The position numbers and the translations under genes are program-made. The notes below the pieces were generated by a model that saw only the letters and a program-made list of their open reading frames with translations, ran no database searches and was not told the origin of the DNA. 61,038 bases of DNA, taken from positions 1 through 61,038 of the IMG/VR virus record IMGVR_UViG_3300025168_017075; one strand, 5' to 3'. Positions 1 through 60,802 of this stretch are shown here, piece after piece. This DNA is from a virus. Position 1 is the first letter of the stretch, and each line of letters starts with the position of its first letter.

Positions 1-124
1 GATGTTTGTAAGTGACTAGATTTAACAAACAAATTTTATCTGTTTAGAAAAATAGAACAAGCCTGTGGATGACTTGAGTTGGAAAGTATCTTGGACGCGG
101 GTTCGACTCCCGCCGTCTCCACCA
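1..124 (+). ncRNA. ssrA: tmRNA (ssrA), 3' portion only
   Basis: Seen: a T-arm (GCGGG at 97-101, loop TTCGACT, CCCGC at 109-113), then a 7-nt acceptor strand CGTCTCC, discriminator A and encoded CCA ending at 124. Upstream there is no D-arm or anticodon arm at tRNA spacing. Instead the segment AAGCCTGTGG followed by about 25 nt and GGACGCGGGTTCGACT (93-108) closely matches the 3' end of bacterial tmRNA, where AAGCATGTAG precedes the same T-arm. Small pairings before it (TTTGT/ACAAA, TGTT/AACA) fit the last pseudoknot. tmRNA with SmpB rescues stalled ribosomes and tags the nascent peptide. The 5' half and tag reading frame lie outside the window. A phage copy is uncommon. The first downstream gene begins 8 nt after the CCA. 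Confidence 0.88.
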
Positions 125-1720: not shown

Positions 1721-3076
1721 ATGAAAAAAATTTATGTTTTAGACACTAGTGTCTGCTTGTCTGATTCGAACTGCATCTTTGACTATGATAATAATGATGT
1801 TATTATCCCTCTCAAAGTATTGGAGGAGATCGATGGGCATAAGAAGAGGCAGGATGCTGTAGGCGTACAAGCAAGATCTGCAATAAGGTTGTTCGATGAG
1901 TTAAGAGAAAAAGGATCCTTACAAAAGGGCGTACGTCTTGGGAAAGGCAAAGGTATCCTTAAAGTTGCCTCTCATGGAGTTTCAGAGTTACCTGATGATT
2001 TGAATTGTGAGCATAACGATCACATTATTATATCTACTGCTCTCGCAGAAAAGAATTCTCAAGAAAAAAGAAAAGTAATTCTTGTTAGTCGCGACATTAA
2101 CATGAGAGTTATCGCTGACTCTATTGGTGTACTTTCAGAAGATTATGATAAAAATCAGGCAATAAGAAAAGAAAGCGATCTTTATTCTGGGTTTGCTAAA
2201 CATCTCGTAGATGAACAAATGGTAGATCAGTTCTACTCTGGGGAAAGCGTCTTTATTGATAAAGAAGAAAAAGTTGGGCTCTTGCCAAATCAGTTTATTA
2301 TGCTTGTCTCAAATACGAATGAAAAGAAGACTGCACTTTGCCGCTTCATGGGTTACATGTGGCCACTACAAAAGGTTCAGGAATACAAAAATGGGCTCTG
2401 GGGAGTTCGCGCCAGAAACAAAGAGCAATCATTTGCCCTTGACTTGTTAATGGATCCAGATGTTCAAATTGTATCTCTCATCGGTAAGGCAGGTTCGGGA
2501 AAGACTCTATTAGCTATCGCAGCGGGGTTAGAGCAAGTTGTAAGCAACAAGACGGTAATGAGTGCAGCCTTTGATAACAAAGGCTTCTCAGACGGCTTAT
2601 ACAGGCGTTTAATCGTATCTCGCCCAGTACAGCCTATGGGAAAAGACATTGGTTTCCTTCCGGGCACAATGGAAGACAAGATGAAACCTTGGTTGGCGCC
2701 AATCGAAGATAACTTAAAGTTCCTAACTGGTGATGACAACTCTACGCTAGAAATGTACATGGAAAAGGGCATCATTGAGATGGAGGCGCTTACTTACATA
2801 CGCGGCCGCTCAATCGCAAACTCATTTATTATTGTTGATGAGGCACAGAACCTTTCGCGCCACGAGGTAAAGACTATCCTCACAAGAGCCGGTGAGGGTA
2901 CAAAGATTGTCCTTACTGGTGATGTTGAGCAAATAGACAACATCTACATCAATGAGACCTCTACGGGCCTAGTACATGCAGTAGAAAGACTGAAGAAGTT
3001 CGATATCGCCGGCCATGTTACGCTACGCAAGGGCGAAAGATCTAAGCTAGCAACCGTCGCAGCAAAGAATTTATAA
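1721..3076 (+). CDS. phoH: PIN-PhoH ATPase
   Basis: A 451-aa protein with two domains. The N-terminal PIN nuclease domain spans about residues 1-140: it begins with the strand ending LDTS, where Asp8 is the first metal ligand, and has the second acidic cluster near NDHIIISTA and the SRDINMR region. The PhoH-type P-loop ATPase spans about 235-451: Walker A GKAGSGKT is near residue 255 and Walker B IIVDEAQN near 371, followed by TGDVEQID. This is the PhoH2/PhoL arrangement, which in bacteria couples RNA unwinding to cleavage. PhoH homologues are among the most frequent auxiliary genes of marine phages; the old link to phosphate starvation is not established for them. The start is supported by AGGAAA 5-10 nt upstream. 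Confidence 0.95.
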   Translation: MKKIYVLDTSVCLSDSNCIFDYDNNDVIIPLKVLEEIDGHKKRQDAVGVQARSAIRLFDELREKGSLQKGVRLGKGKGILKVASHGVSELPDDLNCEHNDHIIISTALAEKNSQEKRKVILVSRDINMRVIADSIGVLSEDYDKNQAIRKESDLYSGFAKHLVDEQMVDQFYSGESVFIDKEEKVGLLPNQFIMLVSNTNEKKTALCRFMGYMWPLQKVQEYKNGLWGVRARNKEQSFALDLLMDPDVQIVSLIGKAGSGKTLLAIAAGLEQVVSNKTVMSAAFDNKGFSDGLYRRLIVSRPVQPMGKDIGFLPGTMEDKMKPWLAPIEDNLKFLTGDDNSTLEMYMEKGIIEMEALTYIRGRSIANSFIIVDEAQNLSRHEVKTILTRAGEGTKIVLTGDVEQIDNIYINETSTGLVHAVERLKKFDIAGHVTLRKGERSKLATVAAKNL

Positions 3077-27700: not shown

Positions 27701-30700
27701 ATGGCATTTGATAATCTTAGAAATGTAGAACCATTCATAAAATTAGTAAAAAATCTACTTCAAGAAATTGAAGGTATAGCTCTTCATGATGAACATAATG
27801 TTTCGGTTGCTAACGAAGAGTTGCCAATTAATGATGTGACGGAAGATGGAACACCTTATGCGGCTTTAATTCCAGCAGCTACTAATCTCTGGACAACGGA
27901 AGCAGAAGGCGGTATACCAGAAGTATGGGCCTCTAAAAATGAGTACTTCTTTTCATTAGTTTCAGAGCACGAGATACCATACCAATATCATACAATAGCT
28001 GCCGAATTCGCGGACGAGTTAGCTACGGGAATTTCGCTAGATGGCGAGATAATATGTGATGCACCAAGCGGAATATTGCCCATCGGAGAAAGATCAAGGC
28101 CATGGCTGGATGTCGGAAAGATAAAAAATGAAATGGATGCTAGTTCCCCCTCTGGCGAATCAGGTGTTGCTCTAAATAAAAATGACGCCGCGGCAAGAAT
28201 AGAGTTTTTGAGTCAAATATTGAAAATGTGTATCCTTTTACACGAAGGAGACTTCGATCAAGAAAATGCATACATGTTTCCAGAAAACCAAGATTTTAAC
28301 AATAACGACATAAACACTAGTCCTTCAAAAGTAAGTAATAAAGTTTCACAATATTATTCAGGAGATCCAGCGGAGCTTCAAGGTGTTGGCGTTGCAGCAA
28401 CTGGTTTTTTAAGCAGTCATGGTAATGCAAGATTTAAATTTACTTCCCAACATCATGATGGTCATCAAGTTAACTTAAATATAGATTCTTTCGCCGGATA
28501 TCCTTCCCTTTTCAGCGATGCACAATCTATATATGACCTGTTGACGACAGTTAATGATAACCTAGGTAAGTGGTCTCCAAAAACAATTTACAATAGTTTA
28601 GATGTCCATGCCGGCCCAAATGTGGTTGACGTAGATAGCCATCCTTCTTCTCTCGATCCTACTGATAGGGGATTCTCTTCAACAGGGACATATGGCCCAG
28701 ATGCAGCTCTTGCACATACTGGGGAAGTAAGAGAAAACCACAAAGAAGAATATGAAGATATAGGAGAATATATCAGCCTACTTGATCCTTTCACGGGAAA
28801 GGATAATACCACCGGTCAATTCGAAATAATCATAAGTCCTGGCTTGAGGTGGAATGAATGGGAGTGCGTGGCAAGTCTTGAAGGGTTCTTGTTTTGGTCA
28901 AAAGAATTAATAGAGCTTTTGACAACATATTACTCTGATTTTGCCCCAGCCCTCAAAGGACTGCCAGTTTTCTATGGCGGACAAAGTTCGATAATTTATC
29001 CAAAACAAGATAGCCCAGTTGATACTCAAGAGCAGATTGAACTTGAATCAATTCTCGCTGGATACGATGATATCTCTATAGCCGATATTCAAATAATGGA
29101 AGATGAAATATTTACCGAAGGCCTCAATATTACTGAAGATGTTAAAGCTTGGTGGTGCGAATTTATTAGCCTAACAGGGGTGGTTGTACCTGACTGCTCA
29201 AGTATGGAAGCTTCTTCTACCGACGCGGTGGAGTCATTGAACGCTGTTGATGTAGAAAAATGTGATCCAGATCTAGAAGCAGCCGTAGAAGAGGAGTGTG
29301 CCACTTGCATACCAGACCCTAATGCTTTCGTTGTCGACTGGACTACGCTAAATGATGGTGCTTATTTTTTAAATGAGAAAACTTGTGAATATTCTGTTGT
29401 AGTAAGGACTAGCGAAGAAAATCCATATAATAGTATAGGTGATTTATACTTGGCAGATGAAGTGGCAATCGGCGCACAAAGATTATTAAATGCATACATG
29501 AAGGCAGATACCCTAACATATACTGATTCTAGTGGTAATGTATTTGAAGAATCCACAAGTAATGTGATATTTTCAGATGCACTAATTCAGTCTTATTTGG
29601 GCTTTTCTATCAAGTCAGAAGAGTTTCCTCATATACCTTCTGATGGAATTTATGCCTCTACATCCCCCCTTATAAAAGGAAGAGTTTTAGTAGTTATACC
29701 CGCAATTTTATTTAATAAAATACCACAAAACTTGGACTCCTTAAGGTCAATTGAGCCTCCGAAAACTGGCGCGGTTGTAAGGTTATTTACCAAAGATATA
29801 AACTTTATGGTTAAACAAATTGCCGGCGCCATGAGGTATTATGCGATAAATTATGCTTCATGGGTATTGTTGGAAAGGCAAGACTCCGGAGAAGACTATG
29901 GAGAGTTAAATTTAAATGTTCAGGCAGAAAATCTTGAATTGTTTGCGCAAGATATGGATATGTATCTGCAAAGATTTGGATATACCTTTAATCGGGCAGA
30001 ATATTTAGAAATTGGTTTTAACGAAAATTTAGATCAAATAGAATACATGCTGGTTAATGAGCCTGGATGCCCTCCTATTCCGTTGGTGGTAGATGAACTG
30101 TTTGATGCATCAAATTTCATAAAAGCTTTTAGCGGGAGGTGGTTTAACAGAAGATCTTTAGCGTATATACAAAGAATTCCCGATATACATAACGATGTTT
30201 CTGCTCGCGAGCCTTTGTCGTGGAATGATTTTATTTTAAAATATACAGTGGATCTAAAAAATACAAATGAACTCAGTGAGGGCCTACCAGACAGCGCTCT
30301 TTATTGTTTGGCCGAGTCTCTTGTTGGTCCATTTGATGATCTATTAAAAGAAATATCTTTGGATGTTTTAGATCTACCACAAGCATATGCCGACAAGATT
30401 AACAAAATGCTTTGCAGTGGCGACAAGTATGACCGGCCGGACATTGAAATGGGAGACTGGGCAGCAATGTCTGAGAGGGCAGCTCTACTCGCTTCAGAAG
30501 AATTCTTCGCCGGCGATGCAATGGTTGATGATCTTCCACAGATTATAGCTGCACTTGCCAGCGGTGGAGATGTTAAAGCTCTCTGGAAAGAAGTTTTTAA
30601 CAAGTATGATTGGTGTGGATGGCTAGCATTAATCGATATGTTACTGGGTTGTTTACTTAAAGGAGTGCCGGCCGCAGATGGTATAGCGATAATGGTGGAA

Positions 30701-33700
30701 GCTGCCCTTCGGGCCCTCCCTGATGATGGACTACAGAGGCTATTTATAGGTCTAACCCCAGAACAGCAAAATCAAATAGCAGCACAGGTTTCCGAGTCAT
30801 TGGGGATAATTGCAGCCACTCCTCCGTGGGAAAAAGAATATGCAACTGGAACAAGCTACAGTACAGGTGGTACCAAAGAAAGTACCCCGACCATAACAGA
30901 AATATCAATCGAAAATGGTAAAAATCTTTGGAACCCTAATGATCAGCCAACTTCAAGCTGGAACCCACAAGACACATCAGATGTCTATAATTATAGATCG
31001 ACCCTCGATAGTGGTGATGAACATTACTTATCCTCTATAGAAGGTCAGCAAGAAATGACATCTCTTTATCCATTTTTAGGGCCAGACCCTTTCGCACAAT
31101 CAGGAATGGGAACGATTGCTACAGGCCTTCAAGATGTTGGCGAAGTAATAGTTAGTGCCTACAAGGATGCGATTCTAGGCACCATTGATACTGACGCGCT
31201 TTTGGGTCTATTAAATACACTACCAGGTGCTGAAATTCTTAGGACTACGATTTCTTCCGTGGGTTGCGCAATACCTCCACTTTACGATCCACCTTTGGAT
31301 TCTTTTTTCAAAGATGTCGAAATGGATTTCTGCCGCGGCAACATTTGTTTTGCCTCTTGTTTGCCAAAATTTCAAGGATTTAGTATACCATCAAACTTGA
31401 AAGATATTTTGATGGAGGCACTTCTTGAAGTTATCGAAAAGCTAGTAGTTCAAGCCCTCATCAAAATAATATATACAATTATTAAAATGCTTTTGGACGC
31501 CCTTTGTAAGGCCCTTGGTGCAATTGGCGCCGCTGTTGAAGGCGCTATCACTGGAGATTTTCACGAGGCGTTTAAAGATGTGTTCTGTAATGAAGATATG
31601 TCTGATGAAGATATCGATGAGGCAGCAGTTGGCATGATTGCCGCCTTGAATGGTTGCGATCCAGAAATTTTGAGAGCAGTGGCTTCGGAGTTTGTATCTG
31701 ATTTAACGCTAATTCTCACAGATCAAGAGCTTGTAGACCTTCTCAATGGAGATGCTGGTCCGACAACACTTGGCAAGATTGTGGAAATTGCAAAACTAAT
31801 ATATCCAGATACTTTTGGAACGTGTGATGGGTTCTCAAGTGTAGAGGCTGCATCTCTAACGTTTTCCACTATTGGAAAAGTAGTTCCATCTAAATACAAA
31901 AATATAACACAGCCAACGTGTGGCCCGCTATTGCCGTCTCTGTGTGAGCCTTCTGCTTTACAAGAGTGGGAAGATTTACAATGCTCTTTATTGCAGGAAA
32001 ATAAAAGCTTAAGTTTGGAACAATGCACCGAGCAATTAAATAACTTAAGATCAAGAATAAAACAAGACATATCCCAATTGGCTCGTGTTGCTCATGAGGG
32101 GTTCATTGATATACCGGATATTATATCTGATTCTGCTTATGGGGATCCTTGCGATGCAAGCAGTATCTTGCCATCTTCTGATCCTTCGACGAATGCTCTA
32201 ATAGGTGAGTTAACAAGCGGAATGTTTAAGACACTTAATTTACAACACACTCATGACATGACCAGCAACCAAGGTATTTTTAGTAGGGGTGGCATATTCA
32301 ATATGATACTTAGCAATAAAAGGGGGAGAGGGTTTGAGTCGCATATGAAACAAGTTATGGACGAAAGAAAAAACCTTTTTCCGGAAAGAGTAGCTGGATA
32401 TCTACAGGATTCTTATTTTAAAACGGGAGACATGATATCAGATTCTTTTTCCACCTCTGAAGAGGAATCAAACCAGTCAAGCGTTTGGGGAGTTGATTAT
32501 CCTAGAAAATTTAGGGTGTGTGATGTTGATGTTTCTACAGAGAAGCTAGAAGAATACTCTTATTCAAGCCTGCAAAAACCTTTGTCTGCTTTACCGGGAT
32601 ATTTTGAGTATACTGGCTTCGGACAATCTGCGGAAATAGAGCAGGAGAACTTTTTAGAAGTATCAAAAAATCCAGATCTGACACTTAAATATGAAGACTA
32701 CTTCGATGACGATAAAGATAGATACAAGTTTGATATGGAATATCACAACTTTCAAATAGTAGATGGAAAATCTGTGCTAAATGATTACTATAAGGTTAGA
32801 ATTCATGAAACAGCTGAAACAACGGGTGACGGAGATTTCGGTTCTTGGGTAGGTATTTCTGGTGAGCAATTGATGGAGTCAGAGGTGGCTTCATTAATAT
32901 CGGAAGCAGAACAAGGCACAATAAATCTTAATATAGATGAATACCTTTCTGATAAAAAATCCCCCAAGAATTCTATATATGCTAAATATATTATGGAAGT
33001 AATTTCTGAATTGGAAGGGGATAAATCTTCTACAAACTTAAATGACTTCTTTGATGGCTTTTATGGACAATACGATGAAATATTTGAAAAATATTTAAGG
33101 CTATTTTCAAGTCGACTTGCTGATGATTCGAACCCTGCATTTACTCATGGATTCCCAACAAACTATGATTTATCCGAACTTGATGAAGATGAAGAGTATG
33201 ATCCTTCGGCCGATTTCCCAGTGCCAGCAAAAGTATATTTAGATCAGACTTATAAAAACATATATACTGGAGAAAGCCAACCAATCCCCCCAGAGTCATA
33301 TGGCGGTTCCGCGGATAATCCTGCTTGGTTTATAACTCCTCCTGTTATGGGCGGTGTTGCTGGGGTGCTTCAAGCTTTCGTTCCTTCCGAAGTTGGCTGT
33401 AAGCCAAGAAGATCTCCTACTTGTGATTTCGAACAGCTTTCAGAGTTATTTGATGAATACTATGATAAATTAAAAGATGATCCAAGATTGCAGCAAAATC
33501 CATCATGTGCCTCCGAGCCTCCATGGAGCAAAATATTAGATCGTTCAGCGCAAGCGGGAACGGAAACACTCATAAGGGCAATCATCAGAATATATTCTGT
33601 TGAAGCTATTATATCTGGCTTGCCGTCCTTTGCAGTGTTCGAAGGAAAAGTTCCAGAAGTCTTTGATGAGTCTTTGATAGATTACATAATTGATATGATG

Positions 33701-35308
33701 GAAGAAGGCTTGTTGGAGCAAAAAACAGGTTTCTTCTTGAGAAACTTATTTACAGATCCTAACTCATTTTACTTTTCCTTTATGGAACAAATAGTTCAAA
33801 GCTATGGCCGACGTGTTGATCTTGGGGAGATAGTGCCAAGCGAGGCAGAACAACAAGCCGTTAATAGAATAAATCAATTGCAAGACAAATGGACTAAATC
33901 TATTGGACCAATGTTGGCAAAGAACGCTTGGCCTGGCTCTGTGGCCGCAGGAATAATGGCGGCAGTAGCCAGTCCGTTTGGAGATTTGGCATCGGCAGCT
34001 GGAGCTTTGCTTGGCGAGAGTGTTTTTACTGCTGGAAAGCTAAAGGAAAAATGGTGGTATTCTTTTGTCGGCAACGATCAAGCCTTGGAAGACACAAGAA
34101 TACTTATGCGTAGATATGTAAAAGATGAACTTAGGTATATTTTAGAAGGACTAAAAGAAGATTTACGTCCACCGATTTCAGACTTGCATAATGTATTTTT
34201 AGTTAATAGAGATTTCATGATAGGTTCCCTCGATTCAGGCGGACCATTGGATGTGGCTAGTGTAACTTATGGCGCCATTGATTCTGAAAAGTTTGATGCT
34301 GCTATCGGCACCGCGGCTGGAAATGGCGTCGATGACATTCCGTTTGTTTTGGAAAAATATATAAAGATAATAGATAAGCCTATGGAGGAAGTTACGACAT
34401 ATGGCGGTACTGGCTTTGGATCAAGCACCGCAGATTCTGCGGCAGTGCAAAGTTTGTCAGAGGCGCAAAAAAATATAATAGGAAGATCTGATATACCAGC
34501 ACTGCAAGACTTTATAAGCTTTGATGATTTTAATAATTATATTTTAGGCAGTCCAGATATATTTGCTGAAGGCGAAGACGTTTCAACTTATTTTGAAGGA
34601 TTGGAATTTGGAATAAGAATTTCTAAGATTTCTCACGCAATGACGGAGGAGGAAAAGACAGCGAATCCTGATGCAATTGACGAGTATTCAATGCTGCAAG
34701 ACAAAATTAAAGGTGGAACTGCTGATGCGGTCCTTAAGAACAAAGCATTTAATCTTGGTAATCACATTTTAATTCCTATGTGCTGGACATCTAAAACTAG
34801 TGATAATTTAAAAAATAACTCCATAACAGACATAGCCAATAATTTAGATGGGTATTTTAACGCGGAGCTAGATTGTTTGGTTGCGGATCTAATAGAAAGC
34901 CCTAGATACAAATTGTTGTTCGATTATGCAATTTCAATGAAGAGAATGGTTTCCCTTCTTACTATTTATACTATGAAGTCATATATTCCTTCTGTTGGCT
35001 CGAAAGAGTATGATGATTGGAGTAAGGATGGCGGAAAATTTATCTGGTTTAACTCTGGATTTAAATATTGGGATCGTCAATCACACTTTGAAAGATCTAA
35101 AAGGCTATCTAGAAACATGTTTATGTCTTACTACAATTCGCAACAATTTGATTGGTCACCTGGAGATACGGGCAAAGATAAGTCAACTTTTGGTTTTGAT
35201 ATTAACATTGGTATCCCGTTCAACCTTTTCTGGTGGATATCCAGAATGCAAAGGTTCCAAGCCCTCGATTCAGAAGGGAATCCTTGTAGCCTGAAAGAAG
35301 AAGATTAA
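27701..35308 (+). CDS. giant virion structural protein (2535 aa), baseplate/tail associated
   Basis: No homologue is recognised with certainty. The protein is acidic and rich in short helices. About residues 1235-1290 hold a strongly hydrophobic helical stretch (KLVVQALIKIIYTIIKMLLDALCKALGAIGAAVEG in pieces) preceded by several Cys. Cys pairs also occur near 500-540 (SMEASSTDAVESLNAVDVEKC, then CATC) and around 1400-1450. A Gly/Ala-rich hydrophobic patch lies near 2080-2110. No signal peptide, protease or peptidoglycan-hydrolase motif was found. Its place between the spike candidate and gp25 suggests a tail or baseplate component, perhaps delivering hydrophobic segments to the host envelope at infection. 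No frameshift is visible. Confidence 0.75.
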   Translation: MAFDNLRNVEPFIKLVKNLLQEIEGIALHDEHNVSVANEELPINDVTEDGTPYAALIPAATNLWTTEAEGGIPEVWASKNEYFFSLVSEHEIPYQYHTIAAEFADELATGISLDGEIICDAPSGILPIGERSRPWLDVGKIKNEMDASSPSGESGVALNKNDAAARIEFLSQILKMCILLHEGDFDQENAYMFPENQDFNNNDINTSPSKVSNKVSQYYSGDPAELQGVGVAATGFLSSHGNARFKFTSQHHDGHQVNLNIDSFAGYPSLFSDAQSIYDLLTTVNDNLGKWSPKTIYNSLDVHAGPNVVDVDSHPSSLDPTDRGFSSTGTYGPDAALAHTGEVRENHKEEYEDIGEYISLLDPFTGKDNTTGQFEIIISPGLRWNEWECVASLEGFLFWSKELIELLTTYYSDFAPALKGLPVFYGGQSSIIYPKQDSPVDTQEQIELESILAGYDDISIADIQIMEDEIFTEGLNITEDVKAWWCEFISLTGVVVPDCSSMEASSTDAVESLNAVDVEKCDPDLEAAVEEECATCIPDPNAFVVDWTTLNDGAYFLNEKTCEYSVVVRTSEENPYNSIGDLYLADEVAIGAQRLLNAYMKADTLTYTDSSGNVFEESTSNVIFSDALIQSYLGFSIKSEEFPHIPSDGIYASTSPLIKGRVLVVIPAILFNKIPQNLDSLRSIEPPKTGAVVRLFTKDINFMVKQIAGAMRYYAINYASWVLLERQDSGEDYGELNLNVQAENLELFAQDMDMYLQRFGYTFNRAEYLEIGFNENLDQIEYMLVNEPGCPPIPLVVDELFDASNFIKAFSGRWFNRRSLAYIQRIPDIHNDVSAREPLSWNDFILKYTVDLKNTNELSEGLPDSALYCLAESLVGPFDDLLKEISLDVLDLPQAYADKINKMLCSGDKYDRPDIEMGDWAAMSERAALLASEEFFAGDAMVDDLPQIIAALASGGDVKALWKEVFNKYDWCGWLALIDMLLGCLLKGVPAADGIAIMVEAALRALPDDGLQRLFIGLTPEQQNQIAAQVSESLGIIAATPPWEKEYATGTSYSTGGTKESTPTITEISIENGKNLWNPNDQPTSSWNPQDTSDVYNYRSTLDSGDEHYLSSIEGQQEMTSLYPFLGPDPFAQSGMGTIATGLQDVGEVIVSAYKDAILGTIDTDALLGLLNTLPGAEILRTTISSVGCAIPPLYDPPLDSFFKDVEMDFCRGNICFASCLPKFQGFSIPSNLKDILMEALLEVIEKLVVQALIKIIYTIIKMLLDALCKALGAIGAAVEGAITGDFHEAFKDVFCNEDMSDEDIDEAAVGMIAALNGCDPEILRAVASEFVSDLTLILTDQELVDLLNGDAGPTTLGKIVEIAKLIYPDTFGTCDGFSSVEAASLTFSTIGKVVPSKYKNITQPTCGPLLPSLCEPSALQEWEDLQCSLLQENKSLSLEQCTEQLNNLRSRIKQDISQLARVAHEGFIDIPDIISDSAYGDPCDASSILPSSDPSTNALIGELTSGMFKTLNLQHTHDMTSNQGIFSRGGIFNMILSNKRGRGFESHMKQVMDERKNLFPERVAGYLQDSYFKTGDMISDSFSTSEEESNQSSVWGVDYPRKFRVCDVDVSTEKLEEYSYSSLQKPLSALPGYFEYTGFGQSAEIEQENFLEVSKNPDLTLKYEDYFDDDKDRYKFDMEYHNFQIVDGKSVLNDYYKVRIHETAETTGDGDFGSWVGISGEQLMESEVASLISEAEQGTINLNIDEYLSDKKSPKNSIYAKYIMEVISELEGDKSSTNLNDFFDGFYGQYDEIFEKYLRLFSSRLADDSNPAFTHGFPTNYDLSELDEDEEYDPSADFPVPAKVYLDQTYKNIYTGESQPIPPESYGGSADNPAWFITPPVMGGVAGVLQAFVPSEVGCKPRRSPTCDFEQLSELFDEYYDKLKDDPRLQQNPSCASEPPWSKILDRSAQAGTETLIRAIIRIYSVEAIISGLPSFAVFEGKVPEVFDESLIDYIIDMMEEGLLEQKTGFFLRNLFTDPNSFYFSFMEQIVQSYGRRVDLGEIVPSEAEQQAVNRINQLQDKWTKSIGPMLAKNAWPGSVAAGIMAAVASPFGDLASAAGALLGESVFTAGKLKEKWWYSFVGNDQALEDTRILMRRYVKDELRYILEGLKEDLRPPISDLHNVFLVNRDFMIGSLDSGGPLDVASVTYGAIDSEKFDAAIGTAAGNGVDDIPFVLEKYIKIIDKPMEEVTTYGGTGFGSSTADSAAVQSLSEAQKNIIGRSDIPALQDFISFDDFNNYILGSPDIFAEGEDVSTYFEGLEFGIRISKISHAMTEEEKTANPDAIDEYSMLQDKIKGGTADAVLKNKAFNLGNHILIPMCWTSKTSDNLKNNSITDIANNLDGYFNAELDCLVADLIESPRYKLLFDYAISMKRMVSLLTIYTMKSYIPSVGSKEYDDWSKDGGKFIWFNSGFKYWDRQSHFERSKRLSRNMFMSYYNSQQFDWSPGDTGKDKSTFGFDINIGIPFNLFWWISRMQRFQALDSEGNPCSLKEED

Positions 35309-37711: not shown

Positions 37712-39369
37712 TGGGCATTAAAAAATTTACTGCAATAGCAGACGCTACAATCACAAATGCTTTCAAACCTGATTTAGCAACCAGAGGTACCGGCGCTAAC
37801 ACGGGACTTGCAGACTCTTTGGAAGTTTTTTCTATATATAATCAGGTAAGCGGAAACGTATCTGGCTCCTCGCAGGAGCTATCTAGAGTGTTACTTAAAT
37901 TTCCAGTTACGACGACGGACGACTCTACTAATTCAATACAAGCGCAAAGAACTGCTGGCAAAATACCAAGCAGTGGAAGTGTTAATTTTTTCCTCCGTCT
38001 TTATAACGTCAAACACCACGCTACTCTTCCAAGAAATGCAAAATATAATATTTTCGCTGTGTCATCTTCGTGGGAAGAGGGCACAGGAATTGACCTAGAT
38101 ACTTATGAAGATATCACCAGAGATGCAGAGGGCACAAACTGGATTTTTAAATCAAGTGGTTCAACTTGGCTTAGTCCCGGTGGCGACTACCACACTGGCA
38201 CATCGGGCTCCAATTATTTGAGTGCTGATGAAAATAATGTTGGTGTAATGTATAATCAAACTTTGGAACAAGGACCAGAAAATATTGAGATTGACATTTC
38301 TGAACTGGTTGAACAATGGATGGCAGGAATTAAAAATAATTATGGAGTAGGGGTTTTCCTTACGGGTACCCAAGAAGCATATTACTCTGCCTCCTTTGGT
38401 GCCGATTTCCCTTCATGGAATGGTGGCATAAAGCATCATCCCACTGGCGCACTAAAGTCTTTCTTTACCAAAAAGTTTTCATCTCGAAGTTCTGAATACT
38501 TTTTTGGACGTCCAGTAATTGAGGCTCGATGGGACTCAACTGAAAAAGATGATAGAAATAATTTTTATTTTAGCAGTTCACTGGCCACATCAGCAGAAAA
38601 TTTAAACACTCTTTATTTGTACAATTACTTTAGGGGCGCTCTCCGTAACATTCCTAGCATAGGAGAAGGAAATATATACGTTAGTGTATTTTCGGGATCT
38701 ACGGAAAATACTGAGCCATCAGGATCCGCTCTTGTTTTGGTGACAGATGGCACAAATGTCACATCTGTTAATACTAGAGTGGTTACGGGCGGCTATGTAT
38801 CTACGGGAATATACACTGCCAGCTTTGCCCTGACAGCTGGAAGCACTCCAGTGTCTTCTGCTTTCGACGTATGGTTTAGTGGAAGTGGCGATATTGAGTC
38901 TCTTGGGTATACAGCGGAGGAAGGTGTGCAAATGCAAACTGGATCTTTTGCGCCAAAAAGTATAGAAAATACTAACATAGCCCCAGCAACAACATTTGCT
39001 AGCAATATAGTTAATTTGAGATCAATCTACTCCAGAAGAGAGGCAGCTAGATTCAGGGTATATACTCGTCAAAAAAATTGGAATCCATCAATATATTCAA
39101 GGGCAACGGCCACAACCGAGCCTTACGTTATAGAAAGTGGCTCATATAGGGTGTATAGGGTCATTGATGACCTAGAGGTAATTCCACACGGAACAGGCAG
39201 TAATAGGCATACAGAAATGTCTTTTGACGCATCCGGAAGTTATTTTGATTTTGACATAGACATGTTACAAGCCGGCTATTCTTATGCAATAAAATTAGCT
39301 TTTTACAACGGCTCAGTGGGGGGATGGGTTGAACAACCTGAGACATTTAAATTTAGGGTAGAAGAATAA
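37711..39369 (+). CDS. structural protein with DNRLRE-like domain
   Basis: A 552-aa protein. The first about 250 residues have the features of DNRLRE/disaggregatase-type beta domains: ADATITNAF at the start, LLKFPV, FFLRLYNV, a VSSSWEEGTG motif and a later ISELVEQWMAG strand-helix. These domains occur in surface and carbohydrate-binding proteins. The remainder is a Ser/Thr/Gly-rich beta structure ending in a strand set (YSYAIKLAFYNG) common to this phage's tail proteins. It lies between gp6 and the 3378-aa giant, so it may link wedge and fibre or bind host glycans. Confidence 0.7.
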   Translation: MGIKKFTAIADATITNAFKPDLATRGTGANTGLADSLEVFSIYNQVSGNVSGSSQELSRVLLKFPVTTTDDSTNSIQAQRTAGKIPSSGSVNFFLRLYNVKHHATLPRNAKYNIFAVSSSWEEGTGIDLDTYEDITRDAEGTNWIFKSSGSTWLSPGGDYHTGTSGSNYLSADENNVGVMYNQTLEQGPENIEIDISELVEQWMAGIKNNYGVGVFLTGTQEAYYSASFGADFPSWNGGIKHHPTGALKSFFTKKFSSRSSEYFFGRPVIEARWDSTEKDDRNNFYFSSSLATSAENLNTLYLYNYFRGALRNIPSIGEGNIYVSVFSGSTENTEPSGSALVLVTDGTNVTSVNTRVVTGGYVSTGIYTASFALTAGSTPVSSAFDVWFSGSGDIESLGYTAEEGVQMQTGSFAPKSIENTNIAPATTFASNIVNLRSIYSRREAARFRVYTRQKNWNPSIYSRATATTEPYVIESGSYRVYRVIDDLEVIPHGTGSNRHTEMSFDASGSYFDFDIDMLQAGYSYAIKLAFYNGSVGGWVEQPETFKFRVEE

Positions 39370-42300
39370 TGGCAATTCGTGATTTATTTAAGGGCGATAC
39401 CGCCACTTCTAAAGCCGCACCAACTAAAGCGGAGACAATTGATAGCATATTTGGCGCCGAACAAGGCTCATCTGTCGAATCTGCCGAAAATGTTGCAGAA
39501 AAAATAAAACAAAAGGATAGATTTGTTCCTGATGTTGATTTTTCTACGGCCTCTAACTTTGCTAGGTTTGGATCGGCTGAAGAATATTACAGAAGCTCAA
39601 TTAAAAGAGTTTATCAGCAATATCCATATGATGGCTCTGAAGCTGAAAAAAACAAATTTAGAAATCAATCAACTTTTTTAGATCTTTATGTATTAGATAA
39701 GTTGTATCCCTCTTCCACTGGTTACGCAGTTTTTGCTCCGGCCGGATGGGGAGATCAAGGATCTACTGTTGGTGGTTGGGGTTCTCCATCCTCTAATGAG
39801 TTTATTGCTATCAAGGGCGGTCCACATACATCATCTGGGGGCTTGATTGGGGAAGACCTGTATAAAGCCTTTGATGAGCCTATAAACAGGACTAGTCCCA
39901 ATTCTAACACATATGATGAATCAATATATGATTCTGCTGGTGTTCTAGGTGGCGACAGGGTTGGCTCTAACGAGTCTAATCTTAAATTTGATCTGTCCAA
40001 GGGAGTTTCTACGGAGTTTTGGCTCAAGAAAGGAGATTGGATAACCAGTCTGACCGAAAAAGAGGTCATATTTGATTTATGGAACGGAAAAGCCTCATCG
40101 AGCGCCGATTACGGCCGCTTATTAGTTTTTGTTTCTGGCACCGGCGTCGAGACACTTGGCGCAAATCCTTTCAGGGTTCACCTAGCTTCTGGTAGCGAAT
40201 ATTGGGACATGTCTTTTGGCGGCTCTACTCACACAACATCATCACTTTCAAATGCTTGGAAGCATGTTGCGTTTACATTCTTGTCAAGCTCTGAAGATTC
40301 AGAACTGCAAGCAAAATTTTATATAGATGGAGATCTTCAGTCTACAACTGGAACAACTCATATAGTTAATTTTGGAGAAATAACTGGTTCACTGATCGGT
40401 TATCTTGGAGCACTACAAACTACTCCTTCTGGAAATTTATATCACGGAAAGAGTATGACTGGCGACGGAAAGCTTTCCGGCTCCATCGATGAATTTAGAT
40501 ATTGGAAATCAAAAAGAACATCAGAAAATATTGGCCAAAATTGGTTTACTCAAGTCGGCGGTGGCACCAATGAAGATGTAGCAAATGCAGAGCTTGGCGT
40601 ATACTTTAAGTTTAATGAAGGTATCGTAGGCGCGACCACTAGTGATTCTGTGGTTCTGGATTACTCTGGTAGGATCTCTAATGGAGACTGGACTGGATAC
40701 TCTTCGGCATCAAGAAATACAGGCTCTGCTATTGTATCTGCTAGTGCAGCGGTAGAAGAGTTTGAAGATCCAATAATATACTCTACTCACTCTGGTGTTG
40801 ATTCTTTGTTGACAAGAATGGTAGCATCCGGCGCCGCTTGGGATAACCAAAACAATTCACGATTTGCTTACAATTTGCCTTCATATCTTCTAGAGGAAGA
40901 TGAGGAGTCATCAAAAGATATTTTATATTTGACTCAAATAATGTCAAGCTATCTAGATGATCTTCATTTACAAATTGATCAACTATCAAATATTTCTCAC
41001 AATAATTATTTTTCAAGCGGATCAAGGGGTCTTCCGTTTGTTGACAAGCTGCTGACTTCTAAGGGTTTCATAGCTCCAGACATGTTTGGTGATGCTGAAG
41101 TACTAAACATTATTGGCAACAGAGACGAAGATCGTAATTTTGAGCTAGAGCTATATGAAGTAAAAAACAAAATTTATCAAAATGTATACAACAACTTAAG
41201 TTATATTTTAAAATCAAAAGGTACGGAAAAGTCATTTAGGAACTTAATTCGTTGTTTTGGCGTTGACGAAGATCTGATAAAAATAAATCTATATTCTGAT
41301 AATGGCACATCTACATTAAGAAACAATTATAGATTAAAATCCACAAAGAAAAGATACGTTAATTTTAATACTCCCACCCACAATACAGCTTCCGTGTACC
41401 AACAATCATCAAGCGCGGATTCAAACACCACAGATGTAACATATATATCAGGTTCAGATGAATTACAATATTTGGCAAACACAACTGAAATTGAAGTAAT
41501 ATTCCCCAAACAATTCCCAACAGATCATAATGCTTATGTTGGCACATCTTTTCAGAGTTCTTCAATTTTCGGACACCACACGGCCTCAAACCAGCCAAAT
41601 GCTTTTGAGTGGCCACCTTCTGCTGTTGATTTTAACTTTGAATTGTATGCAATTAGGCCAATTACTGACGATTCAGATGCATATTTTGTAATAAAAGACC
41701 GGGCCGGAAACTTTACATTATCAAGTAGTTTATACAATAATGTATATGAAGACGAAAGATGGAATTTTGCAGTTAGAGTTAAGAATGATAAGTTCCCTGT
41801 AGGCGGCCTTGTTACTGGATCTTCCGGATCGGCCAGTGGACATAATGTTGTTACGCTGGAGTTTTATGGAGTTAATGTAGTATCTGATATTGTAAAGAAT
41901 GAATTCCTTCTTACTGCATCATCTCTTGATAAAAGATACTTGACTGGTCATCGTCGTTATTATGTGGGAGCAAATAGAACAAACTTTAGCGGCGCTGTAG
42001 TTCATAACTCAGACGTTAAGGTGTCTTCTTTGAGGCATTGGGGTAGTTATTTAGAAGATTCCGATATAAGGGAGCATGCAATAAATGCTGAATCTTATGG
42101 CGCCCCAAATCCATATAAGAGCTCATACCAGCTTCAGGGAGTACTATCTTCCTCCAATGTGCCGCAGATTGATACACTAGCGCTTAATTGGGATTATTCT
42201 GAAGTAACTTCTTCAAATGTTATTGGAGAATTTACGGTAGAAGACTTTTCGTCAGGCTCTATAATCGCTGGAAGAAGATATCCTGGAACCTTTGGGGAAA

Positions 42301-45300
42301 TCGTTGGCAATTTATATGCTGGACGAGGCATAGGTTTTGTGCCAAGCAGCACATCTTCAGTAAGCACAGAATATATTTCTAATGCAAAACACCAACTGCC
42401 AGAATCGATAAGTGGCGAAGACATGATCAGTGTATTGCAACAAGATGATGTAACATTCGGGAAAGACAACAGGCCAGTCGATTACTATATAACCTTTGAA
42501 AAGAGCCTATATCAGACAATATCAGAAGAAATGATGAACATGTTTGGATCAATCGTAGAGTTTAATAATTTGATAGGCAATCCTGTTAACAGATACAGGC
42601 AGGATTATAAAGAGTTAGGAAAGTTAAGGCAACTATTTTTTGAGCAAGTTCAAAACACGCCAGATGTAGATAAGTTTATTTCTTATTATATATGGTTAGA
42701 CTCGGCAATGTCGCAGATGATTCAGCAACTTATACCTTTGTCAGCTAATGCATCTGGAGAAATTCTTAATGTAATAGAAAGCCATGTTCTTGAAAGAAAT
42801 AAATATCGTTCAAAATTCCCAATGCTCGAAAACAAAGAGTCGACTGAAGTGAGTATCAGGGGCCATCATGAGATGAACTATTCTTGGAAACACGGCCACG
42901 CCCCAATCCCACAACAAGCGACGGCAACAGTCACGGTTGCAGATGGCGATGCAGATTCCGGAATGACAGAAAAAGAAAGTATGACTATTACTTCAACAGA
43001 CGGAACATCAAGGATTTATGTAATCATTGATGATAATGCAACAGCTGTCGCGACAGGCGCCGCATTGACCACTACATCCGACACTGGAGCGAACCAAGCA
43101 GGAATAAAAGCCACAGCAACTTGGACATTTACCGATAAGCCAAACGAAGCGACAACAATTACGCTTATTGATTACGAAGGCACTTCACTTGTATTTGAAG
43201 TTGATAACGATGGCGACGGTGGCGCCGGTTCTAACATAGAGATGGATCCTGCCTCTAACAACGCAGCCGGCATGTCCGCGATCTTAATCAGCAAAGTTAA
43301 CGCATCGGCCCTGAAAATAACCGCTACAGCAGGGGACGCAACTGGCGAGGTGCTTCTGACTCAAGACAACGCCGGCACAGCCGGCAATAAAACAATAGCT
43401 CTCAGTAACTACGCTAATTGGAACGCCAACACCGCAGCTACTTTCCCAACTGCCTTCACTGCCGGCGCCGAAGTTGCCGCAAATAGTGTCGCAGTCGCCA
43501 TCAATACAACTGGTACCGCAGCCACTCAAAATGAATTTTTAGTTCAACTTAAAGCAGCAATAGAAAGTGCCGCCGGCCACGCTGGCAAGATTACAGTTTC
43601 TGCTGTTCCTACTGAAGCCAACGGCGCTCAAACAATTACTTTAACTCAAGTTGTTGGGGGTACCAGCGGCAACGCTGCAACATTTAGTGATGACATAAGC
43701 CAGACTACGATTGTTGGCTTCACCGGTGGTCATGATAAAGAAAACGAAAACTCCCTGTGGTGGAAAGAAAGAGCAGAAGTTACACACCTAGCGCTGTCTC
43801 AGAGCAGGCCTTTTGTTAATGATCGAAGAGAAGAGCTTAGGGAAGTTATTATTAGTAAAATTTCTGGAACGGCTCCAACCTTTAAGCACAATCCTGCATA
43901 TAGTAGTTCACTATATAATGTACGAACGATGCCCGGCCTATATAGTATATCTGGAGATATGCAAAAGCTATATACATCTGGAGACAATTCAAATCAAGAC
44001 GATAAAAAATATTACTATAGAGAATTGATTGAATTTAGCAAGGCAACCGGTTTGATTATTGAGGATATTGAGGACGAAGTTTATATAACTGATGATATAA
44101 GCATGCCAAAATCCTTGCAAAAAATTAGAAAAAGATTTAGAGCCGGCGGAGAGTTCAAGCAGAATGTTGCTCCTTTTACAATAATGAGTTCCTCGACGCC
44201 ATCTCGTGGCTACAATACAAATCTATATAGTAATTTTAAATCAAATGTTGATATAACAAATAATCACACGGACACTACATTTGGAAACGAAATTTCTATG
44301 CAGAGCCCTTTCACAGAGAAGTTTGTGGGAGGTTCATTCCACAGACATGCCGATTTAAATCAATCTGCGTCCGCAAAAACCTTAACTGGTCATGCAGGCG
44401 GCCTAGATTCTACGGTGGAAAGGATAGAAGCATATGATATGACTCTTGCTTCTGATAAGATAACTATCGCTCATCGTGACATTAACAAACCAAGATCCTC
44501 ATACTTTAGAGAAGAGGTCGCAAAAAGACCGGTCAACATCAGAAACATAAAATTAACAACAGGTTCGGGTCCAAACCCAGCAGTGACACAATATGTTTCA
44601 GGTACTTTACAATCAACGTTGGGCAACTTTAGTAATATTCATGAAGTAGTTCAGACTTCAGATCGCTCAACAAATAATAGCTCATATGTTAAGGCTGGAG
44701 GTTTCGATAGCTCATCGGCTATCTCTTATTTATTATCTGATGGCGCCGACTTCGAAAAGCCAAGCAGAAGACGCACTGGTCATGTTTTTGTCGAAAGATT
44801 TTCAGCACCAGGAGGTCCAGAAACGTCTGGAGATAATCTCGGTGGACCCGCCCTAGATTTTGAATCTGCACAATTTTCTCCATATAATGATATGAATACT
44901 CGGAACAGCACGGTACGTGCAGCGCTTAAAACTTTACTGCAAGAAAGAGCAGAACAATTTGGAATAAGATCTGGCTCATCAGTAAGAGGGGTAGACTATG
45001 ATACGCTACCAAGTTATCATGATGTTAATAGGAATGCCCTAAGCAGGAGAAGAAACACTAGTGAGGTTGATCCCGAAAAAGCAACGGCAACTATAACTGT
45101 TGCTGATGGCGATGCCGCTAGCGGTATGGCTGAAAAAGAAACTATTGTTATAACATCTACCGATGGTACGGCGAAAACATATTGCGTTATCGATGATAAT
45201 GCAACCACGGTCGCAACGGGCGCAGTCCTTGCTGCTGACTCTGACATAGGATCAGAAGCTGCTGGCGCCGCCCTCGTTGGCGCCATCGCCGTCGCCATTA

Positions 45301-48300
45301 ACTTAACAGGCAGCGCTTCAACGCAAAATACCTTTTTGGTGCAACTTAAGGCAGCTATTGAAAGTGCAAACGGACATGCTGGCAAGATTACGGTCTCTTC
45401 CGTTCCCACTGAAGCCAATGGTGCTCAAGCAATTACTTTAACCCAAGCAGTTGGCGGATCTGACGGAAATGTAACTATAACAGATGATATAAGTCAAACT
45501 ACTATAGCCGGCTTTACTGGTGGCATTAATCAGTCTATAGTTAATGAGGTAGTTGCTACTTTTGACAATTACTATGTACAGCATGAAATACCAAGAAGTG
45601 ATCTTCAGTATTCTTGGATAACATCCTCTTATTTGTCGACGCACGTTTTTGGACATGCCCCTGCTGATGGCGAAATTTCAAGCTCTGCCATAACAAGTCT
45701 CGGCCGCGCCTTTGGCGTGGTACCAGCAATTACATTCGCAAGCGCTAGTAGTATAAGCACTGCTAGCTTTATAGTTGATTTTGTTGGCCTCAATACTTTG
45801 ATTCACGAGCCCTTTACTTCCTCGACAGGAAGAAGAGGGTATCCAGCCTCTCAGCCTTTAAATTCTTATAGAAACACTGCGCTTCACTTTCCTCCCACTG
45901 GGGGCCTTAGAATCGGATCTCATAGCCCTGTAGCTACAGACGGAAACGAAGTTTTAAATGCATTATTGCTGCACAGAAATGGACCATATAGCTATCCATC
46001 ATGGAAGCAATTAAGGAACGATGAAAATCCAATTGTAAGGCACTGGAGAAGAAATAGTACTATAGCGATAAATCCGGATGGAGAAGAAACAAATATCACC
46101 GTTGTGGCATCAAGCGCCGCAGGGGATGGATATACTATAGTTACTAAAGATAAATATGGCGGCCTGCGTACCTTTATAGAACCAGCTGTTATGTCTAGAA
46201 ACCTCCCATTAACAATAAATCTGGGAATAAAAAATGGTACCTCTGACGTCGCCACAAGTTTAAAAAGTTCTTTTTCTAATGATTTAGATTACTTTGGAAA
46301 CGCCTCGCTAAACAACGCGCTAACACTACCAGAAACCCAAGCAACTTCTTATGATTCCATTAAAAGCCTATATCTAGAGGGAGGCTTAGCCAACGCGGCA
46401 TCTCCCGTTAATACATTTATAGATTTAACTTATGCACAAAATGTTTGGCCAAAACCGGAAAATGCATTCCAGAACAAAACAAGAAAAAGAAATAATTATG
46501 AAAACAATTTCTGGCGTAAAGTGCGCACAGACAGAGACTCTTTGGGTGATAGAAAATATGTTTCAAATGGCGCTTTAAGTGGTGCTTATAGTGCTTGGGC
46601 GATGGATGCAGATAATGACTTCTCAACAGATATAACGGGAACAACAGCAGGAATATTACAGAACAACACAACACATATGTTCCAGAAAAATGTTAATGGC
46701 TCAACCACCGCCGCGTCGGCAACTGAAATAACAGCTTCTATACTTTTCCACAGAAAGCATGGTTTGGCATCCACGGGTTCAGTGAGAAAACTAGCAGGAC
46801 TTCAAGTGGTGGAGACTGGTTCAACAAATCTTGCAACAGCAACAGAGCCTCTTGGTGATATACAAATTGGTGGTGGAAATGCTGTATGGGAAGTTGACTC
46901 CGGAGCTGGATTCTATAGCGATGACGGAACTTTCAATCTTTCCCCCTCTTCACCTTGGTACGACGACTACTCGGAATTCTCTGATGACTTGAGAACAAGC
47001 AATAAAGATATGTCAATAATACCAGAATTTAGAATAAGTGAGCACATAAAAAAATACATGAATGTTCATAATGGAAACTTCTTGGCAGATAATGAGTCTT
47101 CCTTGTCAATATTCGGAGCTCCGTCTGGCTCTTCTCTTCCGCAGAATAGTTCTGAAACAGATTTTTATAATGTATATACAAATTCAGACTTTATGAAACA
47201 CTTTGCAACAATAAGAAAAGATCATGAAGGATTTGCCGATGCATCGGAAATAACATTAACGTGTGAAGCGTTAACTAAATTTGTTCCTTATGATGGCTTT
47301 TATCCTTCCGAACTTCTTGTCGACTTATACAATACATTCTCAAGTTCATATGGCAACTTTGTTCAATATGACGGCGCCACTTCCAACCTTGCAGCAGGCC
47401 TCAATGCAAAAATAAGACCATTTATTGCACCTATGTTCGCGCCAGGAATATGGTGTAACACGATTAAATCAGGTATTGCAGTTGACTATCCCGTATATAC
47501 TGGCTCCTATGTCGTGCATAGTCCGCTATTAAGCCCATCAGGCAAGACAACTTATAAGTTGTTGTCGACATCATCTCTTCAGTCTTTAGACGGATTCGAT
47601 CTTAGAGTTCCTTTCGATGCTTTGGTCCAGCCAGAAAAATATTTAACAAACATGACTCTTGTTGATATGGAGGCAAGTTTTAGCTCTTCTGTTAATATAA
47701 CTGCTTCGTGGACTGGTGAAGGTAGCATGCTTTATAAGATGCGAGCACACAATGCTTTGTCCTCTATGATTGAGTTTTTCTTGCAGGGAGAAGGCAACAA
47801 GGGAGACTTGACAACAATTAAGTCTTTGCCAGAAGATCAATTTCAGCCATTTGTCTCTGGCACAACTTATGCCATGAGGGTTAAGTTGAGAAAAAGCTAC
47901 AATAAACCTAGACAGGAAAATGCGACATTCTCAAGAGGGTTTACTCTGCCGCAAGATACAGCTGGAGATGTTAATGCTGGATTAGAAGAAACAATTACTA
48001 TTTGTAGTCGCCCATCTTCCTTTGGTCCGCCTGTCGCCGGCCGTAAAAATATTTCATTCGCCTCTGGTACAGCAAAAGCCAGCTACCCACAGACACTCGA
48101 TAGTCTAACAGGTATCAATCCAGCGTTTACTCCGCCTTATTACGATGGAGAATGTTGGTGTGATATTACATATACACACGCTACCAGTACGCAGCCGACA
48201 CTTAAAGATATACAGAGAGATGCTAATCTGACTCACTTCAGGTTTGATCCAGTTGTTTGGAATGGTGGCAGTAATTATCAGCCGTACGGCAAGGCCAACA

Positions 48301-59009: not shown

Positions 59010-60251
59010 ATGTCGAACTACTACCATAAGTTTGGTGAAAAAGACATTTTTTATAACCAAATAAAAGCTCACCCACAAAATGAGTTTTTTATCTTTGATT
59101 GTAAAGTTTATCATAACAAAAAGATGGCAGAGTCTGGCGCTTTTACTGGCAGCGTACTGGCAGTTTCTAGCGGCTTTACTAGCTTATTTGAGATGAATGT
59201 CGATAGGCATCCAGGCAAAACAGGAATGATCTATCCATATATTGTTAAAACATCGGATAAGGTTTCATTCAAAAATATATCAGATCAATCATGGCAACTT
59301 GATTATAATTACGGCGCCAATATCACGGGATCATATCCCATGTCTGCGTCTTTGTCGAGAGAATTTTTCGCATCAGGCTTGACAGGTTCATCAAATTATA
59401 CTGGCTCTGCTTTAAAAAATACATTTAATTATTATAAAATTATGAGCCCTCATTTCGCTTATACTGGCTCAATCACTCTAGGTTCTGACGGCAAAAGGCA
59501 TGTAATGTCAAAAGGGTCACAAAGGTCTTGTTTGGTTGCTATACCTTCAATATTTTATGGCTCCTCTATTCAGAAGGGTACTATAGATTTAAAATTCTAT
59601 ATAACAGGAACTTTAGTTGGTCAACTTAAAGATGAGCGAAAAAATGGAGAATTAATACAGATAGGCCCAGAAGGAAGTACTGGTTCTGGTTCCGTCGCCG
59701 GCGTAGCTCTATATAATGAAGGGTTCTTATATTTATCTGGTGCTTGGGGTTTAAATTCCAACAATATAGCTTTTGACGAAGCCCCAATATTGGATAAACC
59801 AAAATGGATATATTTTGGGGCAGGGATTAGCCCTATAAACTCTGCTGATCCTCCTTGCCATGGCAGTGCTAGTTTTGCCAACTTATCTTCTGCAAGTTTT
59901 GAACTCAACTTCTCCGGAACAAGCTTTGTACCAAACATCACCATGATGGCGCATGCAAAAAGAGGAGAATTAAATCATTCGAATAACTTTACCTATATAA
60001 AATTTAATCAAACATCTTCTTTATTACCAAAGTCTGGATCATATCAGTGGATCGAAAATAACCTCCAAATTAAAAATGTGGTCAGTTCGGCATATGAAGA
60101 CCCGACAGGAAGCTTTGAGAAGACAACTTATATAACCAAGATTGGTATATATGATGATAATAAAAACCTTATCGGTATCGCCTCTACTTCAAAACCAATT
60201 AAAAAAACATTAAATAGGGGCTTGACATTCAAGCTAAAACTTGATATATAG
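59010..60251 (+). CDS. virion structural protein, C-terminus shared with previous gene
   Basis: A 413-aa protein with many YTGS/FTGS turns (for example FTGSVLAVSSG, YTGSALKNTF, YTGSITLGSDG), typical of beta-structured marine-phage fibre proteins. The last about 45 residues (TYITKIGIYDDNKNLIGIAST, then IKKTLNRGLTFKLKLDI) repeat the motif at the end of the preceding protein. Ribosome site AAGGCGAG stands before the ATG. It is the last structural gene before the replication genes. Confidence 0.7.
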   Translation: MSNYYHKFGEKDIFYNQIKAHPQNEFFIFDCKVYHNKKMAESGAFTGSVLAVSSGFTSLFEMNVDRHPGKTGMIYPYIVKTSDKVSFKNISDQSWQLDYNYGANITGSYPMSASLSREFFASGLTGSSNYTGSALKNTFNYYKIMSPHFAYTGSITLGSDGKRHVMSKGSQRSCLVAIPSIFYGSSIQKGTIDLKFYITGTLVGQLKDERKNGELIQIGPEGSTGSGSVAGVALYNEGFLYLSGAWGLNSNNIAFDEAPILDKPKWIYFGAGISPINSADPPCHGSASFANLSSASFELNFSGTSFVPNITMMAHAKRGELNHSNNFTYIKFNQTSSLLPKSGSYQWIENNLQIKNVVSSAYEDPTGSFEKTTYITKIGIYDDNKNLIGIASTSKPIKKTLNRGLTFKLKLDI

Positions 60252-60257
60252 TATAGT

Positions 60258-60782
60258 ATGATCCTCGGCTTAGACATTTCTACAAGCATAACTGGCGTAA
60301 CAGTTTTAAACGATGAAGGTGAGATCCTTCACTGCGAAGCAATAGATACAAGAAATAAAAATCATTTCCCAACTCTATTTGAAAAAGCAAGCAAAGTAAG
60401 AGATTACCTTGGTGACATCGAATACAAGTATGACATCGAACACATCTACATTGAGAAAAGCTTACAGACATTCCGCTCTGGCTTCTCATCAGCAAAGACA
60501 CTATCAACGCTCGCATCCTTCAACGGAATAGTAAGCTGGCTCTGCTATGAAATCTGGAGCACTCATCCAGAATACCTTTCAGCAACTTCCGCAAGAAAGT
60601 CCTGTGGCATCAAAGTTCCCAAAGGAATGAAAGCCAAGAAAGTCGTCATTGAGCATCTCGTCGCAAACGAAGCGGACTTCTCAATAGAATACACAAAGCA
60701 CGGCAATCCAAAGCCACACGAGTTCGACAGAGCAGATTCTCTTGTCATAGCCAAAGCCGGATACAACTCTCTCTTGACATAA
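60258..60782 (+). CDS. RuvC-like Holliday junction resolvase
   Basis: A 174-aa protein with the RNase H-fold acidic residues of RuvC: Asp6 in ILGLDISTSITG, Glu66 in IYIEKSL, and Asp157/Asp160 in FDRADSLVIAKAG. RuvC cuts four-way junctions; in phages it resolves branched replicating DNA before packaging. T4 itself uses the unrelated endonuclease VII (gp49), so this phage differs. It is followed at once by a sigma70-type promoter and a primase gene, marking a change from structural to replication genes. Confidence 0.9.
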   Translation: MILGLDISTSITGVTVLNDEGEILHCEAIDTRNKNHFPTLFEKASKVRDYLGDIEYKYDIEHIYIEKSLQTFRSGFSSAKTLSTLASFNGIVSWLCYEIWSTHPEYLSATSARKSCGIKVPKGMKAKKVVIEHLVANEADFSIEYTKHGNPKPHEFDRADSLVIAKAGYNSLLT

Positions 60783-60802
60783 CCCTTCTGCCGTGTTATA
60801 AT
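60774..60802 (+). promoter_or_regulatory. sigma70-type promoter for the primase gene
   Basis: TTGACA at 60774-60779, 17 nt, TATAAT at 60797-60802: a full consensus. Predicted start near 60809, then GGGGG (60811-60815) as ribosome site. The -35 overlaps the end of the resolvase gene. Confidence 0.88.

Follow-up and report, generated by a model that had tools for sequence, protein, structure and literature searches.

At the left edge of the window (the whole stretch of DNA analysed, an entire IMG/VR virus record of 61,038 bases with a GC content of 38%), a match to RF00023, the family of tmRNA (transfer-messenger RNA, by which stuck ribosomes are released), was obtained with Rfam cmscan on the plus strand (53.1 bits, above the gathering score of 47; whole-window E 4.5e-18). 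The alignment covers positions 236-374 of the model, is truncated at the 5' side and stops exactly at the encoded CCA. T arm, acceptor strand and CCA of the tRNA-like 3' domain are all present (Table 1), as the sequence-only reading had described them, and the T in CGTCTCC would pair with the expected G3 (alanine identity pair G3.U70). Up to the CCA the elements follow the model in linear order and not in the permuted order of a two-piece tmRNA. Neither a complete tRNA nor a complete tmRNA was reported by ARAGORN for the window, because the gene there is an incomplete fragment. Positions 1-124 are confirmed as the 3' part of a one-piece tmRNA. Neither a tag frame nor a 5' acceptor strand was found within the window; since the window is the whole record, the 5' part of the tmRNA and its tag lie off the contig.

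Table 1. Features at the left end of the window
Feature	Position	Strand	Evidence or remark
tmRNA (ssrA), one-piece, 3' part, 5' truncated by contig end	1..124	+	RF00023 match
Linker / helix 2 3' strand AGCCTGTGGATGACTTGA	60..77	+	exact 18-mers and alignment; letter-identical in phage relatives L038, L042, L043 and L076
T arm GCGGG-TTCGACT-CCCGC	97..113	+	
Acceptor 3' strand CGTCTCC, discriminator A, encoded CCA	114..124	+	
Small ORF, 70 aa	132..344	+	starts 7 nt past CCA
phoH-like gene	1721..3076	+	phrog_2765, E 5e-108; syntenic downstream neighbour of tmRNA in relatives

The proposed position of the fragment directly upstream of phage genes on the same strand was borne out: the small ORF is followed by phoH, an exonuclease and glycosyltransferases, and later by baseplate-wedge genes. 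The window probably represents a large contractile-tailed phage. No relatives of the small ORF's protein were found among viral contigs. An overlapping ORF pair at 457-1100 (TM and coil; signal-like N-terminus) could be a spanin pair, and the structural region contains two giant ORFs (2535 aa at 27701-35308 and 3378 aa at 39369-49505). Sigma-70-like promoters were noted by eye at 60774-60802, 1089-1118 and 60221-60250, with TTGACA-17-TATAAT at ~60774.

The exact 32-mer GGACGCGGGTTCGACTCCCGCCGTCTCCACCA from the 3' end of the tmRNA was found in 27 stretches of viral contigs, in one copy per record and mostly in mid-contig (e.g. at 29.9 kb of 203 kb, 75 kb of 194 kb and 20 kb of 155 kb). The region 1.7-7.5 kb of the window aligns to many of these contigs at ~64-72% nucleotide identity. 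In most of the loci a complete tmRNA with a pairing 5' end and a tag ending in AA was predicted by ARAGORN; for L001 and L016 the gene was complete once a longer stretch was taken. With PhoH as starting point, 54 relatives were obtained, and a tmRNA above the Rfam cut-off was present in 14 of the 41 records searched whole. The nearest PhoH relatives that have a tmRNA (L076, L077, L078, L079, L108, L123 and L125; PhoH identity 68-69%) carry it on the phoH strand, upstream of that gene. In the more remote group L088-L093 the two genes are on opposite strands, and L074 and L075, the closest relatives by PhoH, are contigs that end short of the tmRNA position.

The phage tmRNA genes of the relatives are 313-422 nt long and encode tags of 12-14 aa. 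An extension upstream had been proposed, with the expectation of a 5' end GGRGACG and a tag frame ending in Ala-Ala. Performed by way of the relatives, it yielded complete tmRNAs with 5' strand and tag, including those syntenic with phoH. The Ala-Ala end holds in these genes; their 5' ends pair with the 3' strand as expected and mostly read GGGGAYG or GGGGGTG, and the window's own 5' end is off the contig. No suffix-prefix overlap between the window and any fetched locus was found for its own upstream part, and the sole match of a 19-mer search for that part (L128) was a chance match in protein-coding sequence. An RF04321 match in L044 had indicated a permuted tmRNA; the DNA there has the one-piece order, and the contig stops inside the gene.

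One relative (L080) begins inside the tmRNA 3' domain, as the window does, and shares 99.88% identity over 12,299 nt with L125, where the tmRNA gene is complete and encodes the tag ANNNNYELALAA. Because a contig cut at that spot is nearly identical to one with the whole gene, the cut at the window start is probably an assembly effect as well. Three further contigs (G019, L044 and L050) likewise end within the tmRNA gene. Assembly graphs break at sequence that several populations have in common, and the conserved tmRNA 3' end may be such a sequence. A remnant or decoy consisting of the tRNA-like domain only, which could inhibit the host tmRNA, would also show a 3' part as seen in the window, and the mycobacteriophage DS6A does carry little beyond this domain (PMC4131195). 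For the present phage this is very improbable, as the fragment extends ~60 nt further in the 5' direction than the conserved linker and tRNA-like part and matches the model from position 236 on, the relatives have the full gene with tag, and the like truncation in L080 is an assembly effect, as judged from L125.

The whole gene occurs at the same place in many related uncultured phages, and for this reason the tmRNA of the window is almost certainly the phage's own. The complete gene was seen within phage DNA in the relatives; the left flank of the window is missing, so the same setting is presumed for the window. The sequence-only interpretation was supported in part: its claim of a phage-encoded tmRNA is backed, by way of the relatives, by complete, syntenic mid-contig genes, by the pair L080/L125 and by the absence of an integrase. 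The position of the fragment exactly at the window edge could also be explained by the 3' end of a host ssrA at a prophage junction (attL/attR), the fragment then being a host gene or an att copy; phages and islands classically integrate at ssrA, as is generally known and noted in PMC9004378. However, no PF00589 integrase was found in 19 records (the window and 18 relatives), the 32-mer occurs once per record, and the complete gene of the relatives has virus DNA on both flanks. Furthermore, linker and T arm of the window match those of L076 and L043 at 87% and those of 26 genes of Flavobacteriales, the only cellular group in this comparison, at 79% or less. For an att site, an integrase and a duplicated ssrA 3' end would be expected; neither was present in the record, which may be incomplete. 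On the basis of the missing integrase and the single 3' end the prophage junction was rejected, and we consider it highly unlikely.

Conservation was analyzed in 50 of 51 distinct tmRNA predictions; a doubtful one located in a bacterial bin (L130) was left out. A CCA is encoded in 41 of the 50 (strict motif) and is absent in nine relatives, the nearest among them: the phage tmRNAs closest to the window (L038, L042, L043, L076, L079 and L125) are without it, and the window has it. All 7 acceptor and 5 T-stem pairs are formed in 41 of 41 CCA-encoding tmRNAs, with two-sided changes at several pairs of both stems, and G3.U70 is kept in every one of these genes. In the 36 genes whose tag has 14 aa, pairwise differences, which are non-independent counts, amounted to 1473, 538 and 321 at codon positions 3, 1 and 2, respectively; such a third-position excess is expected if the peptide is kept. 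Judged from these comparisons, both tag and RNA structure look maintained.

A homologous gene of ~115 aa was found just upstream of the tmRNA in 32 of 51 cases, often preceded by a second conserved gene of ~280 aa. Distances of the tmRNA and of this upstream marker gene were correlated (r=0.56, 0/2000 permutations), which is consistent with a long co-inheritance of the two. G036 and G037 contain the neighbour gene and no detected tmRNA; the tmRNA gene is therefore dispensable. No Pfam or PHROGs family was assigned to the neighbour, the C-terminal part of which (e.g. in L076, L038 and L012) weakly resembles a Fis-type helix-turn-helix. A coactivator like T4 gp33 was considered for this gene but not borne out: the profile gave only a weak match to Fis, and a structure model (pLDDT 74, pTM 0.49) had no good PDB match. 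A tubulin/FtsZ-like gene (weak PF00091 match, E 9e-5) is next to the tmRNA in L036 (823-2040), L003, L006 and L052 and occurs more distantly in the L088-L093 group; none was found in the window.

The commonest tags of the relatives are ANNNNHFESVRLAA, ANNNNNFESVRLAA and ANNNNHFDSVRLAA; others are ANNNNHFEAAALAA, ANTDTYSEYALAA, ANDNVEFDYALAA and ANNNNFVLAQAA. The 14-aa form, typically ANNNNHFESVRLAA, is common to many of these uncultured phages, with codon changes mostly at third positions. A degenerate DNA pattern for ANNNxxF[DE]xVRLAA, which needs exact residues and misses cellular tags of similar but different form, matched 45 viral-contig stretches and one locus in 84,980 cellular species genomes. 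This sole cellular match comes from L036, a contig of 4.7 kb in the bin of a Flavobacteriales MAG. A phage origin of the contig is most likely, because its tubulin-like gene is 57-68% identical to the gene adjoining the tmRNA in the virus contigs L003, L006 and L052. The SVRLAA-type tag thus appears in no proven bacterial gene and, by the sequences compared, seems to go beyond the published phage tmRNAs found in the literature. Among the phage isolates of INPHARED, no match to the tag DNA or to the upstream gene was obtained. The tags of Flavobacteriales, of standard form in 26 of 30 loci, end in YALAA in 25 of the 26.

The suggestion that stalled proteins may receive an altered peptide is supported for a large part of the relatives, namely those with SVRLAA tags; the window's own tag is off the contig. 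A further step would be that the phage tmRNA mainly replaces or outcompetes the host tag and sends stalled products elsewhere, rather than adding rescue capacity. This is a sub-case of the best explanation as far as the gene is concerned and a rival as to its use. The tag frame is conserved in the relatives, tags of the type ...F[DE]SVRLAA are frequent in phages and occur in a single cellular assembly, on a phage-like contig, and the cellular tags of Flavobacteriales nearly all end in YALAA. On the other hand, the LAA end, a ClpX signal in E. coli, is kept in most phage tags, and the nearest full relatives of the window carry several different tags (ANNNNFVLAQAA, ANNNAHFDSVRLAA, ANNNNHFESVRLAA and ANNNNYELALAA), so that replacement as the main use seems rather unlikely. 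Equally tentative is the wider proposal that a widespread group of uncultured phages, by means of its own tmRNA and a phage-specific degradation tag (...HF[DE]SVRLAA) unlike those of the hosts, might re-route stalled products during infection, e.g. to another protease or away from host adaptors.

Together with the full genes in phage DNA of the relatives, their acceptor and T-stem pairing and their conserved tag frame, the fragment very likely represents the last third of a one-piece tmRNA gene that the phage owns in complete form, the 5' part having been lost to an assembly break, and that would act in ribosome rescue assisted by host SmpB. Transcription probably occurs within the rightward operon of the phage, because a search upstream of tmRNA genes in the relatives revealed no consistent sigma-70 site, hence no consistent strong promoter, and hardly any gap separates the tmRNA from the next ORF. 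The transcript would be trimmed by host RNases and charged with alanine by virtue of the G3.U70 acceptor stem. No SmpB was found in 28 records; therefore, as far as the records are complete, the host protein would be needed, and the phage-borne ssrA probably borrows it. Host SmpB would bring the tmRNA to ribosomes that have come to a halt on broken or non-stop messages, where a template switch would add a tag usually ending in LAA and free the ribosome. Phage translation could thereby continue during message degradation, to the presumable benefit of the phage. Of the functions first suggested, free ribosomes or altered tagging, either may apply.

Phage tmRNAs are already known (PMC4131195, PMC9004378), and the window adds another. 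They are uncommon in isolates (402 of 18,146 genomes; PMC9004378). In the literature, phage ssrA has been suggested to keep the hijacked machinery running or to tag host proteins, and host SsrA stays stable in T4 infection (PMC9697503); no functional test for the present phage group was found there. In this group, complete one-piece genes are available by the dozen in a constant genomic setting, close relatives that have the gene can be compared with others that lack it, and the tag family was encountered in cellular assemblies on a phage-like contig only, so that added rescue capacity and a different tag become directly testable against each other.

Mycobacteriophages and phage G are among the listed carriers of ssrA (PMC4131195). 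Of these, Bxz1, Catera and Wildcat and the Bacillus phage G infect other hosts and resemble the present phages in encoding a tmRNA. Methylophilales phage Melnitz and the pelagimyophages are aquatic T4-like phages with a tmRNA near a small transcription-factor gene and no integrase found (PMC9004378). The tmRNA of Melnitz is two-piece (permuted) and associated with a glutamine riboswitch, in contrast to the one-piece form described here, and the upstream neighbour gene of the relatives may be unrelated to the Melnitz coactivator. Huge phages encode tmRNAs too, and SmpB occurs among them (PMC7162821), unlike in the records searched here. The cellular ssrA of Flavobacteriales is likewise one-piece with a conserved T arm, but measures ~400 nt and encodes tags like GENNYALAA, compared with the 313-422 nt and 12-14 aa of the phage genes.
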